Virus record (IMG/VR): IMGVR_UViG_3300036861_000225
Location: 1-54,260 of that record
DNA length: 54,260 nucleotides
Source: a virus
Strand: one strand, 5' to 3'
Below the pieces are notes generated by a model that searched no databases, was not told the DNA's origin, and worked only from the letters and a program-made list of their open reading frames with translations. The position numbers and the translations under genes were made by a program. Of the stretch, positions 36,136 through 50,163 are shown in pieces. Within the stretch, counting starts at the first letter, position 1. Every line of letters starts with the position of its first letter.

Positions 36136-36893
36136 GCCAGTAGCCTCCTAAATGCTTCGCCGCTCTCGACTTCGGACATGCTCCACTGAGCCCACGCCAA
36201 GCGCCGGAACATCGCGAGCCGCATGTCGTCGCGGCGGAGCGGCCCCTTCTTGAACTCACCTAGCGAATGGCACGCCAGCGCGCCGATCCACGATTGCATG
36301 CCGTAGAACACAGGCACGCCCATCATCAAAGCCTTGATCGCGGCGCCCGAGCTCCACGTCGCAACGCTCGATGCGCGCGCCAAGTCCTCTTCCAGCGTCG
36401 GGCCGTCCTTGTTCGTGCCGGGGTGCCGACGGATGCGCCCCTTGGTCGTGCTCACCGCGAGATTGAGCCAGCCGTCCGGTGCGCGCAGGCCGGGCTCGCC
36501 GATGCCGCGCTGCGCGAGGATGACGCATTCGCCGCCGGGCTTGCGCCACGGCGCGAGATTCACGCCCCACGAGTCCCAGCGCTCGGGGCCGCCATTCGGC
36601 CAACGGCCGGCGCCGTTGTGGTGGTTGTGCGCGATCGCGAACGACTGCTCGCCACGCCACTCCTTGCCCAGATAGCCGTTCTCCACGACGAGCACCTTCG
36701 CCTTCGCGGCCTCGAACTCGCGAGCGCGGGAGTGGCCTTCGCCCATGCGGTTCCACGTAACTATGAGGTCTTTAGAACTGGGATTCGCTACCATCCGGTC
36801 TGTGGGCGTGTAGCCAACGGCGCGCAGCCCCGCCATGAAGGCCTCGCGGCGGTAATGCAGGCCCGACCGGAACAGGACGACAGCGCGGCTCAC
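36132..36893 (-). CDS. Glycosyltransferase-like protein, 253 aa
   Basis: Begins MSRAVVLFRSGLHYRREAFM. AKVLVVENGYLGKEWRGEQS, GGECVILAQRGIGEPGLRAP and SVATWSSGAAIKALMMGVPV are shared in style with capsular polysaccharide or Kdo-type GT-B transferases. It sits between the HNH gene and the smaller proteins of the cluster. Assignment at fold level only. Confidence 0.6.
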   Translation of the reverse strand: MSRAVVLFRSGLHYRREAFMAGLRAVGYTPTDRMVANPSSKDLIVTWNRMGEGHSRAREFEAAKAKVLVVENGYLGKEWRGEQSFAIAHNHHNGAGRWPNGGPERWDSWGVNLAPWRKPGGECVILAQRGIGEPGLRAPDGWLNLAVSTTKGRIRRHPGTNKDGPTLEEDLARASSVATWSSGAAIKALMMGVPVFYGMQSWIGALACHSLGEFKKGPLRRDDMRLAMFRRLAWAQWSMSEVESGEAFRRLLA

Positions 36894-37396
36894 AAAAGCC
36901 CCAAGGATTTGTTTGTGCGTGCGAAGGGGCCGTAAAGCCGACGTGCCGCAGAGTCATAAGCCCGTGCGGCTTTCTTGGGGTCGGCAAACACGCCCAGATG
37001 CACGGAGCTGCCCACTTGAGCGCGCCACCCATTGCGAAACTTGCTCACGCCTTTGAAGCCGCTCGTGTTCCGCGACAGGAGCCCGCGGTTCGTTAGATTT
37101 TGGGATTGGTTGGCTTCTCGGAGATTCGCGCGGTGATTTGCCTCACTGCTACCGTTTTTGTGATCGGTGTTGGTCGGCCACGTACCATGCAAATAGAATA
37201 GTGCGAGCCGGTGTGCGTAGTAGAGAACCCCATCGATGCGGATTCGAGCGTACGTCTTGCCACTGTGCCGCTTGCTCATGCACCCAGCGGTCGATCCCGC
37301 GGGGCGTTGGGGGCTTGCCGAAACGCGCCATGTGAAAACGCCGGTCTTGGGGTCATATCGGAGTACTTCACGCAAACGTGCAAACGTCAGTTTCAC
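36890..37396 (-). CDS. HNH-AP2 homing endonuclease, copy 4
   Basis: 168 aa from GTG 37396 (GTGA overlap with the upstream gene). LREVLRYDPKTGVFTWRV, YYAHRLALFYLHGTWPTNTD, HKNGSSEANHRANLR and SGFKGVSKFRNGWRAQVGSS identify the family. It is the only copy on the minus strand and is fused into the operon by 4-nt overlaps on both sides, unlike copy 1, which has its own promoter. The DNA is less GC-rich than its neighbours. Confidence 0.87.
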   Translation of the reverse strand: MKLTFARLREVLRYDPKTGVFTWRVSASPQRPAGSTAGCMSKRHSGKTYARIRIDGVLYYAHRLALFYLHGTWPTNTDHKNGSSEANHRANLREANQSQNLTNRGLLSRNTSGFKGVSKFRNGWRAQVGSSVHLGVFADPKKAARAYDSAARRLYGPFARTNKSLGLL

Positions 37397-38001
37397 CCGA
37401 GTTCCTTCTCGATCGTCGACATCGGGAACCACTCCAGCGCGGACCCTGGCGTGCAGTTGAGTACTTCGCATTTGTGCTCTACGAGATCTTCCGCGAGTTT
37501 CTTGCCTTTGTGCCGCCACTCTTCAAACAATTGCGCCTGTACCAGCGGCTTCTCGTGGTCGCCGTGCCGGTGCTTCTCGCCGTTCGGCCCGAGCTTCATG
37601 TCCATGCCCAGCAGCAGGATACGCCGCGCGCTCCACAGAAACGCGAGATTGATCGCCTGAAAGCCTGAATTTCCATTGAGGTGCACCACGTTCAGGCCCA
37701 GCCCTTCGCGATTGCCGCCGCGCTGGCGGTTGAGCTGGAATCGCTCGGCCGCGCTGCCGTCTTGGGTCCACCGTTGCGACTTCGGGCACTGTGCCCTGAT
37801 GCGCGCGTGATGCACCTTCCAGAAGAGGTAGTCTCCCGCGTACACCACGTCCGCCCACGGCGCATACACGTACGCGGTGTTGACCGCGATCGTCTTGATC
37901 GGCCTATGGCACGACACCACAGCGTCGAGCTGCGCGTCGCTCAAGCTCGGGCCGGCGCAGATGACGACTGCGGTATGCGCGGACCAGTCAGGTGTTTTCA
38001 T
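37393..38001 (-). CDS. Glycan-related protein, MAF/DUF115-like Rossmann fold, 202 aa
   Basis: ATG at 38001 overlaps the stop of the membrane microprotein (ATGA). HTAVVICAGPSLSDAQLDAV, KTIAVNTAYVYAPWADVVYA and RRILLLGMDMKLGPNGE are typical of the MAF/DUF115 family of sialyl- or pseudaminic-acid transferases and relatives. Predicted to act in glycan modification with its neighbours. Confidence 0.65.
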   Translation of the reverse strand: MKTPDWSAHTAVVICAGPSLSDAQLDAVVSCHRPIKTIAVNTAYVYAPWADVVYAGDYLFWKVHHARIRAQCPKSQRWTQDGSAAERFQLNRQRGGNREGLGLNVVHLNGNSGFQAINLAFLWSARRILLLGMDMKLGPNGEKHRHGDHEKPLVQAQLFEEWRHKGKKLAEDLVEHKCEVLNCTPGSALEWFPMSTIEKELG

Positions 38002-38425: not shown

Positions 38426-38643
38426 GCCAAGTCCTCCAACACTTCACCATCCCATTCATACACGATCGCGTCAGGGCCATCGCCCATGCGCGCGCTCAAC
38501 GTCCCTTCACTCACGCCCGTCGGCCAGAGCGCGCCGAGAGCCGGAATCCCGTGGTCGCGTAGACACTTGAGAACGAAGATGCCGCGGTGCACGTCCTGGC
38601 CGAGATCCGCGAGCCGCGTCTTGCTGATGGTGACGGTGATCAT
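38422..38643 (-). CDS. Hypothetical protein, 73 aa
   Basis: Begins MITVTISKTRLADLGQDVHR; the C-terminus is acidic (YEWDGEVLEDLA). No family recognised. Coupled by ATGA overlaps to the MazZ-like gene upstream and the 97-aa gene downstream. Confidence 0.65.
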   Translation of the reverse strand: MITVTISKTRLADLGQDVHRGIFVLKCLRDHGIPALGALWPTGVSEGTLSARMGDGPDAIVYEWDGEVLEDLA

Positions 38644-39119
38644 TCGGGGACTGTAGCATTTGCTTCGCGCTCGCGCAACTCAAGTTCGAGTGCCGCGAGC
38701 AGGTTCCAGATCATTTGCGCACGGTGAAGGCAACCGGTCTGGGCGTCGACCCGTTCGCCTGTGCCGAACGAAAGCGCGTGTCGGCCGAAAGCATCCATGT
38801 ACCTCTCTTCGCCGTTCGGCACGGATGCCCACCCGTTAGGTGTGTACTTGGCCGCACCGACGGTCGTGACCTTGGCCACCTCGTCGATCGCGCGCGCGAA
38901 CCCGGCAATGCACAACCATACCCGGGTCTTTCCTGCGTCGAGTTTCGCGCCGGGCGTGTGCGCGTCGACTCCGTTAGGGTCGGCTTCGGCGAGCAGCGTG
39001 CGCGCCGGTCGGCAGGCCCGCTCATACCCATCTTTGTTCAGGCTCGGCGACCAGACAACCTCCACGTCGCCCACGACCGGGCACGGTTCGCCATCAGGCC
39101 AAGGAACCCAATCACTCAT
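38640..39119 (-). CDS. dATP/dGTP diphosphohydrolase-like protein (DUF5664/MazZ type)
   Basis: 159 aa. PGAKLDAGKTRVWLCIAGFA, VTTVGAAKYTPNGWASV, RYMDAFGRHALSFGTGERVD and TGCLHRAQMIWNLLAALEL form the DUF5664 domain (residues about 55-150), an all-alpha MazG-like fold. Members related to MazZ hydrolyse dATP/dGTP and supply nucleotides for 2-aminoadenine DNA. No PurZ gene is visible in this window, so a general dNTP-pool role is the safer reading. Confidence 0.75.
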   Translation of the reverse strand: MSDWVPWPDGEPCPVVGDVEVVWSPSLNKDGYERACRPARTLLAEADPNGVDAHTPGAKLDAGKTRVWLCIAGFARAIDEVAKVTTVGAAKYTPNGWASVPNGEERYMDAFGRHALSFGTGERVDAQTGCLHRAQMIWNLLAALELELREREANATVPE

Positions 39120-41546: not shown

Positions 41547-41851
41547 GTCGGCGGCAACCACGCATCCAACTGCGCGAGTGTGGAGATCACGAGGACCGTG
41601 CAGCCCGCCGAGTGCATGCGCTCGTGCTCGCGCGCCTGCGCGGCCGTGGGCTTGCCGTCCGGGGCCTTGGTTTCGATGAAGGGGTGTGTCCCCGCGAGGC
41701 GTGTCAACTGCGTTTCGTGCCAACCCTCGGGGAACAAGCACAGCACGTCCGGCGCGTTCCGCCGGCCCAGCCAGCTCACAGCCCGGATCTCGCCCCCATA
41801 GGCTTCGACGCGCTCTTTCAGCGCTTTTCGGATCTTGCCTTCGGCGGCCAT
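41543..41851 (-). CDS. VRR-NUC domain nuclease
   Basis: 102 aa from ATG 41851, overlapping the HNH gene by 34 nt. RKALKERVEAYGGEIRAVSW, NAPDVLCLF (D35), FIETKAPDG (E60, K62) and AQAREHERMHSAGCTVLVI reproduce the VRR-NUC PD-(D/E)XK fold. Phage members are small resolvase-like endonucleases that process branched DNA during replication or packaging. Confidence 0.85.
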   Translation of the reverse strand: MAAEGKIRKALKERVEAYGGEIRAVSWLGRRNAPDVLCLFPEGWHETQLTRLAGTHPFIETKAPDGKPTAAQAREHERMHSAGCTVLVISTLAQLDAWLPPT

Positions 41852-42180
41852 CTCGGGTTCCTCTGCTGACTCAGTTTCGAATTCTCGCTGCGGGTTTCCA
41901 GGGTCCAGTGATCGGGGTTGATGCAGAGCGTGTTGCCGCACCGGTGCTCGGTGGTCTGGGTCTCTGGATCGAGCGGTACATCATGGAACTGCTGTTCCAT
42001 TTCGCGGTGCGCGGCGACGGTCACGAGCTCGCCGTCGACGCGCTTGTTCAGGCGGCCGTAAGGCCAGCGCTTGCCGCACGTGCGGCCGGTCCATACCCAG
42101 CACCCGTTCTCGTTCTGGTCCTCGGGCTTTTCGCTGTTCGCAACGAGCCTCTGGAACATCGTCACGTACTTCTGCGCCAT
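41818..42180 (-). CDS. HNH endonuclease (non-AP2 type)
   Basis: 120 aa from ATG 42180, which overlaps the regulator stop (TGATG). NGCWVWTGRTCGKRWPYGRL, VAAHREMEQQF, TEHRCGNTLCINPDHWTLET and ENSKLSQQRNP form a complete HNH homing-nuclease domain of a family distinct from the four AP2-type copies. It overlaps the VRR-NUC gene, so it is built into the operon. Confidence 0.85.
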   Translation of the reverse strand: MAQKYVTMFQRLVANSEKPEDQNENGCWVWTGRTCGKRWPYGRLNKRVDGELVTVAAHREMEQQFHDVPLDPETQTTEHRCGNTLCINPDHWTLETRSENSKLSQQRNPRWPPKARSEKR

Positions 42181-42503
42181 CAGGCCGCTCGCATACGCCA
42201 CACGCTCGATCGGTGCACGCCCGTGCTCGCAGCGATCTCCCGCACGCTGCCGGCTGCGGCGCGCACTGCCTCGATCGGTCGCCCAGGTGGCAGTGCCACG
42301 GCGGGCGCATCGAGGATGCCCGCGCCCACGCCGAGCAGCACAGCATGCGGCAGCGTGGACGCGCCAAGGTTGCGCTTGATCTTCACGATCGCGTCCTCAA
42401 CGGCCGACTCGGTAATGCCCAGCAGCGGCGCGACTTGCTTGAGCCGGTTCCCTTGCGCGATGAGTGTCAGCACTTCGCGCTGGCGTTCGGTGAGCTGCCT
42501 CAT
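42180..42503 (-). CDS. LuxR-type HTH regulator, 107 aa
   Basis: ATG at 42503 overlaps the preceding stop (ATGA). Residues 1-48 (TERQREVLTLIAQGNRLKQV, then LLGITESAVEDAIVKIKRN) are a GerE/LuxR helix-turn-helix; the C-terminal VREIAASTGVHRSSVWRM reads as a second short HTH. It has no receiver domain. Its location in the replication operon suggests control of the early-to-late switch (inference). Confidence 0.72.
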   Translation of the reverse strand: MRQLTERQREVLTLIAQGNRLKQVAPLLGITESAVEDAIVKIKRNLGASTLPHAVLLGVGAGILDAPAVALPPGRPIEAVRAAAGSVREIAASTGVHRSSVWRMRAA

Positions 42504-45455: not shown

Positions 45456-46097
45456 TCAGCTCAAGTCGTCGGCGTCGCTGCCGTCCGCCACTTCGCCGAA
45501 CGCCTCGGTCACCGGCGCCGTGGCGCCGCTGAACGCATCGCCGTCGCGCAGGCGCTGGATGACCATGAGCGTTGCGCGCAGGCCCTTGCCGGCCTTGTTG
45601 TCCTGCGCCCAGAGCTCGACTTGCGCGTTGACGTACATGCCCGAGTAGATGCGGCCGGCCTTGCCCGACAGCAGCGCGCCGCTGGCGCGGTCGTAGACCG
45701 GCGACAGGTCCGTGTCGATCACGATCGGGCGCTGCTGGTCCTCGGTGCGGTGCGAGGCCAAGATCCAGACGCCTTCCACGTCCTTGCGCGCACCGTCTTG
45801 CCAGCAGCAGCCCTTGGGGTCGGGCAGGATGTTGGCGAGGTGCATCTTGGCCTTGTCGTTCCACTTCTCGGTGGCGACCTTGACCATCGCGTCATCGATG
45901 AACTTCTTGGCGGCCACCGGCGAGCCGACGACCTTCTTGTCGATCACGAACTGCGCGAGGCTTTGCGGGCCGATGTGGAACGAGGCGGACCAACGCCGCT
46001 TGTCGTTCTCGCGCTGCTTCTGACCCTGGAAATACTCCGGGGCGTCGAGCTTGGGATAGGAGAGGCGAACGTCTTTCAGGAGAACAACGAGACCCAT
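45456..46097 (-). CDS. DUF2815-type single-stranded DNA-binding protein
   Basis: 213 aa from ATG 46097 with AAAGGAAAG upstream. VVLLKDVRLSYPKLDAPEYF, RRWSASFHIGP, GKAGRIYSGMYVNAQVELWA and an acidic tail (GSDADDLS) match the DUF2815 family, phage proteins with an SSB-like OB fold. Expected to coat ssDNA during replication and to partner with the RecB-like nuclease and polymerase in the same operon. Confidence 0.82.
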   Translation of the reverse strand: MGLVVLLKDVRLSYPKLDAPEYFQGQKQRENDKRRWSASFHIGPQSLAQFVIDKKVVGSPVAAKKFIDDAMVKVATEKWNDKAKMHLANILPDPKGCCWQDGARKDVEGVWILASHRTEDQQRPIVIDTDLSPVYDRASGALLSGKAGRIYSGMYVNAQVELWAQDNKAGKGLRATLMVIQRLRDGDAFSGATAPVTEAFGEVADGSDADDLS

Positions 46098-46152: not shown

Positions 46153-46503
46153 CTAGAAACCGGACGGCTGGGCGACGGCGCGCGTGAGCGCCATCAACCC
46201 CTCTTGAAAGTGCGTGCGCGCGATCGCGGCCCAGCGCTCGGGCTCGGCGCGGTTCAGGCGTGCTTTCTCGGCGTGTGCGCGCTGAAACGCTGTCGGCGGG
46301 TCGCCTTCCGCAACAGTTTCAGTTTCGCCTCGATCGATGATTTCTTTCTGCGCGTACAGGTTCATGCCGGTCCGGTGCCGGACCTTCGCGATCAGTGCCT
46401 CGATCTCGTGACCCTTGGCCTTGATCTCGTTCATCAGCGCTGCCTCGGCTTCATTCAGCTGGCGATAGCCCGTGATCTTGGGTTGGGTGAAGGTTTCCAT
46501 CAT
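46153..46503 (-). CDS. Acb2/Tad1-type cyclic-nucleotide sponge (anti-CBASS/anti-Thoeris)
   Basis: 116 aa from ATG 46503 (AGGAG upstream; ATGA overlap). ITGYRQLNEAEAALMNEIKA with KGHEIEALIAKVRHRTG, and the closing RWAAIARTHFQEGLMALTRA, then VAQPSGF, reproduce the Acb2 hairpin signature. Acb2 proteins form hexamers that sequester CBASS and Thoeris signal nucleotides. A 30-residue polar insertion (from NLYAQKEII to NRAEPE) separates the two helices. Early expression before the ssDNA-binding gene would suit a counter-defence role. Confidence 0.85.
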   Translation of the reverse strand: MMETFTQPKITGYRQLNEAEAALMNEIKAKGHEIEALIAKVRHRTGMNLYAQKEIIDRGETETVAEGDPPTAFQRAHAEKARLNRAEPERWAAIARTHFQEGLMALTRAVAQPSGF

Positions 46504-47804
46504 GCAAGGTTCTCCTGTTCAGGTTCAACTGCGAACCCGTCCGCTGACAGCTCGGGCGGGGTGTAGGGCTTCTTGATCTGGGCCGTGGGCTTCACGCTGG
46601 GCTTTGCCGGCGAGCGACTGATCAGCGGTTGGAGCTTCGCCCACTGCTTGCCGCCAAGCGCGGCCTTGCCTTCGGGCGTGTCCTTCGTCATCTTCTCGAC
46701 GCTGGTCGGACTCTTGAGGCTCAGATCGAACGCATCCTCGATCTTGAGACGGAAGGTCTTGCGCAGGAGATCCTCCACCGCGCCCTCATCATTCCATTTG
46801 CGCGCGCCCTCGCGACCCAGCTCCAGACCGAAGCCTTCGACGGCTTGGCCGGCGAGCAGACGTCGCTCAACTTCGGCGCGCACGGCTTTGATCCAATCCT
46901 CGATCATGCCGGTGGCGGCCATCGATTCCGCGAGTTCATCCGCCGCAGCGGGGATGCGCACGGTAGCCTCTTCGTTGATGACGGTGAAACTGCCCGCAAA
47001 GCTCTGCACCTTGCGCGTCATCGCGGGGCACGTCGCCATCGCGCGGCAGAAGCGGCAGTCTTCCTCGTTCGGGTCTGGGTGCAGGTAAGTCTGCGCCCAA
47101 GCGTCGAGACCGTCGCCGCTCAGGCCGGGCAGCGTGATCGTGGCCTCTTCGACCTTCGCGGCGCGCGCCTTCGCGTAGTCCGCGAACACGAGCAGGCCGT
47201 CGACGCTGATCGTCCACTCGGACAAGCCGCCGTGCTTCGGCTGGTAGATGCCGATGCGCACGCTGCGGATGTCGTAGGCCATTTCCAGCTCGGCGTACGC
47301 GCCCAGCGCGTAGAGCATGCCCTGGCTGTTGTTCTCGGGGTCGACCTTGACCCATCCGGTCTTGAGATCGATCACGAACAGTTCGTATCCGCCCTCGTCG
47401 AGCGGAATCAGGACGATGCAGTCCGCAGTGCCGAACTGCCCGGGCACGCCGACGTACTCGCTGAAGTCGACGCGGTGCTCGATCAGCATCAGGTTGCCGA
47501 TACCGAGCGCGCGCACGGTGTCGACGTAGCCCTGCGTCAGCTCGGCCATTTCCTCGGTGAACTTCACGGTGCGCGTGAGCTCGCCCGGGGCGTGCACCGG
47601 CACCAGCGTACCGATGGCCTTGGTCGCGCGCCAGTGCTCGGTGAGGCACATTTTCGCGACCGTGTGCATCGCGGTGCCGTCGTCGCTGGCACCGTTCGCG
47701 GTGTTCGGGTAGGCAGACTCCAGCGCGATGCGGCCGGCGCACTTGAGCCAGCCCTTGCTGGCGCTGGGGGACAGACGCGCGTGCTGTTCTTGGTGTTCGG
47801 TCAT
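46500..47804 (-). CDS. RecB-like PD-(D/E)XK nuclease (DUF2800)
   Basis: 434 aa from ATG 47804 (ATGA overlap). HARLSPSASKGWLKCAG with Cys22, GTADCIVL (D128), LFVIDLKTG (D146, K148), SQGMLYALGAY (Q161) and C-x2-C-x5-C (CRFCRAMATC, about 252-261) give a RecB/AddB-type nuclease with a probable four-Cys Fe-S staple. It probably produces ssDNA for the neighbouring ssDNA-binding protein. The C-terminus is Lys/Pro-rich and disordered. Confidence 0.88.
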   Translation of the reverse strand: MTEHQEQHARLSPSASKGWLKCAGRIALESAYPNTANGASDDGTAMHTVAKMCLTEHWRATKAIGTLVPVHAPGELTRTVKFTEEMAELTQGYVDTVRALGIGNLMLIEHRVDFSEYVGVPGQFGTADCIVLIPLDEGGYELFVIDLKTGWVKVDPENNSQGMLYALGAYAELEMAYDIRSVRIGIYQPKHGGLSEWTISVDGLLVFADYAKARAAKVEEATITLPGLSGDGLDAWAQTYLHPDPNEEDCRFCRAMATCPAMTRKVQSFAGSFTVINEEATVRIPAAADELAESMAATGMIEDWIKAVRAEVERRLLAGQAVEGFGLELGREGARKWNDEGAVEDLLRKTFRLKIEDAFDLSLKSPTSVEKMTKDTPEGKAALGGKQWAKLQPLISRSPAKPSVKPTAQIKKPYTPPELSADGFAVEPEQENLA

Positions 47805-48019
47805 TGCGGTTCCCACATTCCCTCAACGGAGATCGTCGAGCCGTGCATGTATTGGATGGCTTCGCAGCCCTTGATTGCGCCGGCCTTGCGCTTGTACGCC
47901 TCGCCGCTCTCCGCGATCACGCGGCCATTGCGCGCGAAGAGGCGCCAGCGCCAGCCATCCTTGGCGCGGTACACGTCGAAGACGTACGGGAACTGCGACT
48001 TGGGGCGGGGCGGCTTCAT
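47801..48019 (-). CDS. DUF1508-like protein, 72 aa
   Basis: FDVYRAKDGWRWRLFARNGR followed by VIAESGEAYKRKAGAIKGCE is one DUF1508/YegP-type repeat. The family is found in bacteria and phages without a settled function. Overlaps neighbouring genes by 4 nt. Confidence 0.78.
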   Translation of the reverse strand: MKPPRPKSQFPYVFDVYRAKDGWRWRLFARNGRVIAESGEAYKRKAGAIKGCEAIQYMHGSTISVEGMWEPQ

Positions 48020-49361: not shown

Positions 49362-49376
49362 AGACTCGAAAAAGAA

Positions 49377-49398
49377 GCCCGGGACCGAAGCCCCGGGC
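49377..49398 (-). terminator. UUCG-capped terminator between the divergent promoters
   Basis: In minus-strand sense a 9-bp stem (GCCCGGGGC/GUCCCGGGC, one G-U pair) closed by UUCG is followed by a U-rich run (TTCTTTTTC). It would stop antisense leftward transcription arriving from the 49518-53097 block before it reaches the leftward promoter region. Confidence 0.65.
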
Positions 49399-49479
49399 CT
49401 TTGCGCTGGCAACTGCTTACCTGCGGCGTCGGGAACAAGGACAGGAGGAGGAGGAGGAGGGAGGGTTCACCCGACGCGC

Positions 49480-49785: not shown

Positions 49786-50163
49786 ATGACAATGTACGAC
49801 TTGGCCCCCATGACCAACCCCCTCCTGAAGCCGTGCCCATTCTGCGGAGATGCAAACCCGCGTCTAGGCAAGATAATAGAAGGCGACATGCTTCTTCGCG
49901 GCTTCATCATCGAATGTAGCGATTGCACCGCCAACATGGACCGCTGCGAAACAGAGGAAGAAGCCGTCGAATACTGGAACTGCCGCGCCGTTGGTGGCAG
50001 TTCTGGCGCTGAAGGAGCACGCATGGCCAACCCCCTCCGAGAAGCCCTGGCCGAGGCACGCGACGCACTCTGCGAGCTTGCCACTGACAGCCGCCCATAC
50101 GTCGGGCTGTTAATTGACAGGATCGACTCTCTTCTCGCTTCTCCGGCGCCCCGCAGCACTTGA
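49786..50163 (+). CDS. Lar-like restriction alleviation protein with C-terminal extension
   Basis: 125 aa. LKPCPFCGDANPRLGKII, ECSDCTAN and ETEEEAVEYWNCRA give the Lar/zinc-ribbon signature with C17, C20, C44 and C47. Lar proteins modulate type I restriction. About 50 extra residues at the C-terminus (from GSSGAEGARMANPL) form a second helical part. Start at 49786 or internal ATG at 49810; no strong ribosome binding site. Confidence 0.78.
   Translation: MTMYDLAPMTNPLLKPCPFCGDANPRLGKIIEGDMLLRGFIIECSDCTANMDRCETEEEAVEYWNCRAVGGSSGAEGARMANPLREALAEARDALCELATDSRPYVGLLIDRIDSLLASPAPRST

Follow-up and report, generated by a model that had tools for sequence, protein, structure and literature searches.

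The window, that is, the whole stretch of DNA analysed here, is a 54,260-base IMG/VR virus record that encodes a terminase, a portal-like protein, a major head protein, and internal virion and DNA ejection proteins. The terminase, portal, and major head genes place its acb2-type gene in a tailed phage, as befits Acb2. This gene is an intact open reading frame for a 116-aa protein (Table 1), in which both helices quoted in the earlier note, YRQLNEAEAALMNEIKAKG and RWAAIARTHFQEGLMALTRA, are present exactly as given there. Homologues start at the position of the second ATG (METFTQ...). The overlap of the acb2 start with the stop codon of the exonuclease gene suggests that both genes are translationally coupled.

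The order orf150, DUF1508, exonuclease, acb2, SSB, orf136, polA is common to the window and one close relative, the L012 contig, the only one retrieved in a search for further phages with this arrangement. In L012, about 280 additional nucleotides, apparently an open reading frame, lie between acb2 and the SSB gene (L012:6324-6608), and are missing from the window. At the exonuclease-SSB junction of other phages, such as L111 and L123, no acb2 was detected, and in L061 and L062 the junction holds a divergent hairpin protein, so that acb2 behaves as optional cargo. Among the other genes of the window are a cytosine methyltransferase and, at the start of the rightward cluster, a Lar-like restriction-alleviation protein (49786-50163, plus strand), both consistent with a counter-defence repertoire. 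The leftward cluster includes two HNH/homing-endonuclease-like genes (36890-37519 and 41818-42201, minus strand). A dATP/dGTP diphosphohydrolase N-terminal domain (PF18909) is encoded at 38640-39119 (minus strand); its family is known from phages whose purine pools are modified.

Early expression of acb2 from a leftward promoter had been expected, but a sigma-70-type promoter scan gave no evidence above chance, with 2 sites against 2.0 +/- 1.7 expected. The only leftward promoter-like site is found at 49512-49484. Just downstream of it, and upstream of the leftward genes, there is a strong terminator-like hairpin (49375-49400, minus strand; 11 pairs, 8 GC, and a T-run), a possible attenuator given here with promoter-site counts at chance level. 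Rfam returned no match within the window.

Table 1. Coordinates of the acb2-type gene, its parts, and its neighbours in the window
Feature	Position	Strand	Remarks
acb2-type CDS, 116 aa	46153..46503	-	uninterrupted ORF; Pfam, phmmer, and PHROG matches
Alternative start, second ATG	46498-46500	-	would give 115 aa
Shine-Dalgarno AGGAG	46512..46516	-	8 nt 5' of first ATG; kept in close relative L012
ATGA overlap, exonuclease stop/acb2 start	46500..46503	-	read from sequence
Tyr codon in GYR, Tyr12 (METF numbering)	46465..46467	-	aligns with T4 Acb2 Y8
Thr codon in ARTHF, Thr96 (METF numbering)	46213..46215	-	aligns with T4 Acb2 T68
Predicted helix 1, residues 17-57 (from METF)	46330..46452	-	AlphaFold2
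Predicted hairpin turn, residues 58-70 (from METF)	46291..46329	-	AlphaFold2
Predicted helix 2a, residues 71-85, second-arm extension	46246..46290	-	AlphaFold2; compact homologue L048 without helix 2a
Predicted helix 2b, residues 87-110, conserved RW..I..THFQEGLMAL.RAV..P	46171..46242	-	AlphaFold2 and alignment
Hypervariable hairpin tip	46252..46380	-	no blastn similarity to L012 within otherwise similar DNA
Upstream neighbour, DUF2800/PD-(D/E)XK exonuclease	46500..47816	-	Pfam, PHROG
Downstream neighbour, Enc34-type single-strand DNA-binding protein (SSB)	45456..46097	-	Pfam, PHROG

A profile match, a match in the PDB, the predicted fold, and the conservation of binding residues all bear out the assignment of the gene to the Acb2-type sponge family. 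The protein matches the Pfam family PF24729 (Acb2_Tad1_hairpin) with 57.2 bits (E 1.9e-15), over a cut-off of 27 bits, as well as PHROG 717 (E 2.6e-21) and, in a phmmer search of the PDB, the crystallised Acb2 chains 8h2j/8ixz (E 1.3e-12), and the strength of these matches indicates that they are not due to chance. A profile built from 50 relatives finds 8h2j at 2.7e-36 (PaMx33 itself being part of the profile) and reaches T4 Vs.4 (7uq2) at 2.5e-6. The PADLOC defence-gene library holds no match to the protein. AlphaFold2 predicts, for a single chain and with 43 aligned sequences, an antiparallel two-helix fold (pLDDT 92.9) resembling solved Acb2. Searched with Foldseek, this model has Acb2 chains as its six best PDB matches; E is 2.6e-4 at best, the probability 1.00, and TM by target length 0.78-0.82, at a modest identity to solved Acb2 of 34% across the alignment. 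The window gene is an ordinary member of the Acb2 family, rather than a new device.

One of the closest known relatives is the Acb2 of the Pseudomonas phages PaP2 and PaMx33 (gp24/p26; PDB 8H2J, 8H2X, 8IXZ), which shares the hairpin domain, the fold, and the motifs GYR...N..K..G and RW..I.KT..Q.G.MA..RA.AQP with the window protein. It is about 34% identical, its hairpin is 21 residues shorter, and its gene ends a different operon. The homologue of phage JBD67, which related Beetrevirus phages also carry, has the shared motifs and a similarly long hairpin (85 against 91), but it is 39.8% identical, carries an unrelated tip sequence, and is encoded among structural genes. Deletion of acb2 from JBD67 reportedly has a titre phenotype (PMC13083879, citing Huiting 2023). 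Similarly, p26 from Vibrio phage VP882 shares the motifs and a long hairpin (94 against 91), with 40.9% identity and an unrelated tip. T4 Vs.4 (Acb2; PDB 7UQ2) is remote in sequence and shorter, with 89 residues in the crystal, although it has the key Tyr and Thr positions in common with the window protein.

The earlier note described the stretch between the two helices as an inserted loop of about 30 polar residues, possibly a lineage variant with altered specificity or oligomerisation. In the window protein, 58 residues separate G31 from R90. Hairpin length was here measured between two landmarks, the Tyr of GYR and the Met of M-x3-R, in 84 distinct sequences, taken from viral contigs, genomes, and named phages. 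It varies continuously from 51 to 95, with a median of 65; the window protein, with 91, stands near the top, and four others, including VP882, are equal or longer. The corresponding values are 70 for PaMx33, 85 for JBD67, 94 for VP882, and 95 for HJ05. The additional length is thus real, amounting to 21 residues over crystallised Acb2 (91 against 70) and 40 over the most compact relatives (51), so that the proposed size falls in between, and about half of the residues are polar (fraction 0.49-0.54). Its description as a loop does not hold in the predicted structure. In the model of the compact homologue L048 the helices span residues 17-42 and 48-70, shorter than those of the window protein, whose additional residues therefore lengthen both arms and the turn. 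According to the models, the segment is mostly helical, forming an elongated hairpin whose turn is short, and its length is one value in a continuous range. Neither is it a unique or lineage-specific insert, since the METFTQPK lineage, to which the window protein belongs, itself covers 51 to 91 (24 sequences).

Within this hairpin, the ligand-binding frame is conserved, and the tip that it carries behaves as a hypervariable segment. The DNA of the window and L012 is 79-94% identical over the region (flanks 86 and 94%, arms 90%), and the blastn alignment stops at window position 46381 and restarts at 46251, within acb2. The two tips (49 and 37 aa) are 24% identical as proteins, a score reached by 255 of 1000 shuffles and so no better than shuffled sequence, and their DNA keeps a faint residual similarity (18 of 500 shuffles score as high). 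The Pseudomonas phages JBD67 and SS2019XII, with tips of 43 and 30 aa, resemble this pair in the replacement of the tip, with flanks that are 91 and 97% identical, arms 86%, and tips 30%. L033 and L058 possibly show a replacement resembling that between the window and L012. In both of these latter pairs, the arms are also less alike than the flanks, so that exchange of the whole gene is possible there. The tip is unchanged in the close pairs L014/L016, L022/L025, and L032/L036; as some close pairs swap the tip and others keep it, its turnover looks stepwise, by replacement or by indels. Third-position GC is 0.63 in the tip versus 0.84-0.90 in the arms. This variability is the only point that a specialist might not expect.

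The simplest account of it is exchange in a segment without function. An alternative, considered unlikely, is that the gene encodes the same sponge with a functional long tip, which would alter specificity or hexamer packing or bind a partner, and which selection would have diversified. Replacement of the tip between close phages whose arms and flanking genes stay similar, as in window/L012 and JBD67/SS2019XII, would fit this reading, as would the finding that tip lengths differ in 63 of the 118 pairs whose arms are 80-99% identical in DNA (the pairs not being independent). Against it, compact members of 75 aa, nearly without a tip and with the same arms, are common, several close pairs have unchanged tips, no recurring motif was seen in the tips, and ligands are reported to bind at the two termini and in the trimer channel (PMC12043709). 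There is a small chance that the hypervariable tip of Acb2-type sponges is exchanged under diversifying selection over a fixed ligand-binding frame, for example to evade recognition of the sponge itself by a host factor or to gain a partner.

The ligand contacts were taken from two reviews (PMC12043709, PMC10419184) and from PMC12657230. In T4 Acb2, Y8A is binding-deficient and T68M reduces affinity (PMC12657230); the numbering of the 7uq2 chain was read from the alignment as one above the residue numbers in that paper. The window protein keeps every one of the GYR, N, IK, W, and T positions, and Y12, L15, G30, W90, M103, R107, and P112 are invariant in the alignment. Compared with L012, the arms show a dN of 0.11 and a dS of 0.33, and are under purifying selection. 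The unchanged known pocket residues argue weakly against an altered specificity.

The same intact positions and the selection on the arms speak against a protein that shares the hairpin domain but has ceased to act as a sponge or fulfils another role, a reading which is considered very improbable even though the family includes members that could suggest it. Thus, the divergent protein at the exonuclease-SSB junction of L061 and L062 (5821-6114 in both) is without GYR and IK, has a Phe at the Tyr position, and keeps the RW..I..THFQEGLM helix; its dinucleotide pocket might be lost. Other members have N-terminal extensions: in the Pseudomonas phages KPP23 (L080:3377-4279) and RSP (L081:3416-4117) the hairpin domain is C-terminal in proteins of 300 and 233 aa, whose N-terminal parts matched no Pfam family.

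The least credible reading, a Tad1-type sponge that also sequesters the gcADPR of Thoeris, as the earlier note had partly proposed, draws on a Pfam family name spanning both Acb2 and Tad1 hairpins and is ruled out as the main reading by the fold: Tad1 shares the C-terminal hairpin domain family with the window protein, but begins with a beta-sheet at its N-terminus and builds its pocket partly from loops (PMC12043709), whereas the AlphaFold2 model of the window protein has no beta strand, with residues 1-16 as coil, the credible sequence and structure matches are to Acb2/Vs.4 only, and it is Tad1 and Tad2 that have been published as gcADPR sponges, with Acb2 not reported as such (PMC12043709, PMC10419184), so that neither the sheet nor gcADPR binding is indicated here.

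The window protein is thus regarded, with considerable confidence and by analogy with characterised relatives, as an Acb2-type sponge that would soak up the cyclic-nucleotide signal of CBASS, its variable hairpin tip probably lying off the ligand. In the Acb2 hexamer, three cyclic dinucleotides occupy pockets to which paired protomers contribute their N- and C-terminal regions, and the ends of the trimer channel accommodate two cyclic trinucleotides; with these signals bound, the CBASS effector is not activated (PMC12043709, PMC10419184). Since the window protein retains the ligand-binding parts, the same anti-CBASS action is what can best be inferred. Family membership, predicted fold, key residues, gene context, and tip variability are computed properties of the gene; from the family, the protein would be expected to assemble into a hexamer with pockets for tight binding of the cyclic di- and trinucleotides that host CBASS enzymes make, 3'3'-cGAMP and cA3 among them; this binding would keep the suicide effector off and let the phage replicate. 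Expression would probably involve co-transcription and translational coupling with the surrounding replication and recombination genes. In this proposed sponge, the ligand-binding residues belong to the conserved part, made up of both helical arms and the two termini, and the extra segment is the tip of the hairpin, a predicted lengthening of the two-helix arm with a short turn, which varies freely in length and sequence across the family and probably makes no ligand contact.

With this gene, a well-studied counter-defence family gains a natural allele with a long hairpin, and shows that the length and sequence of the tip are no reason to assume a new specificity. Should the replacement of the tip between close phages prove to be selected, hosts able to sense the sponge itself would be indicated.
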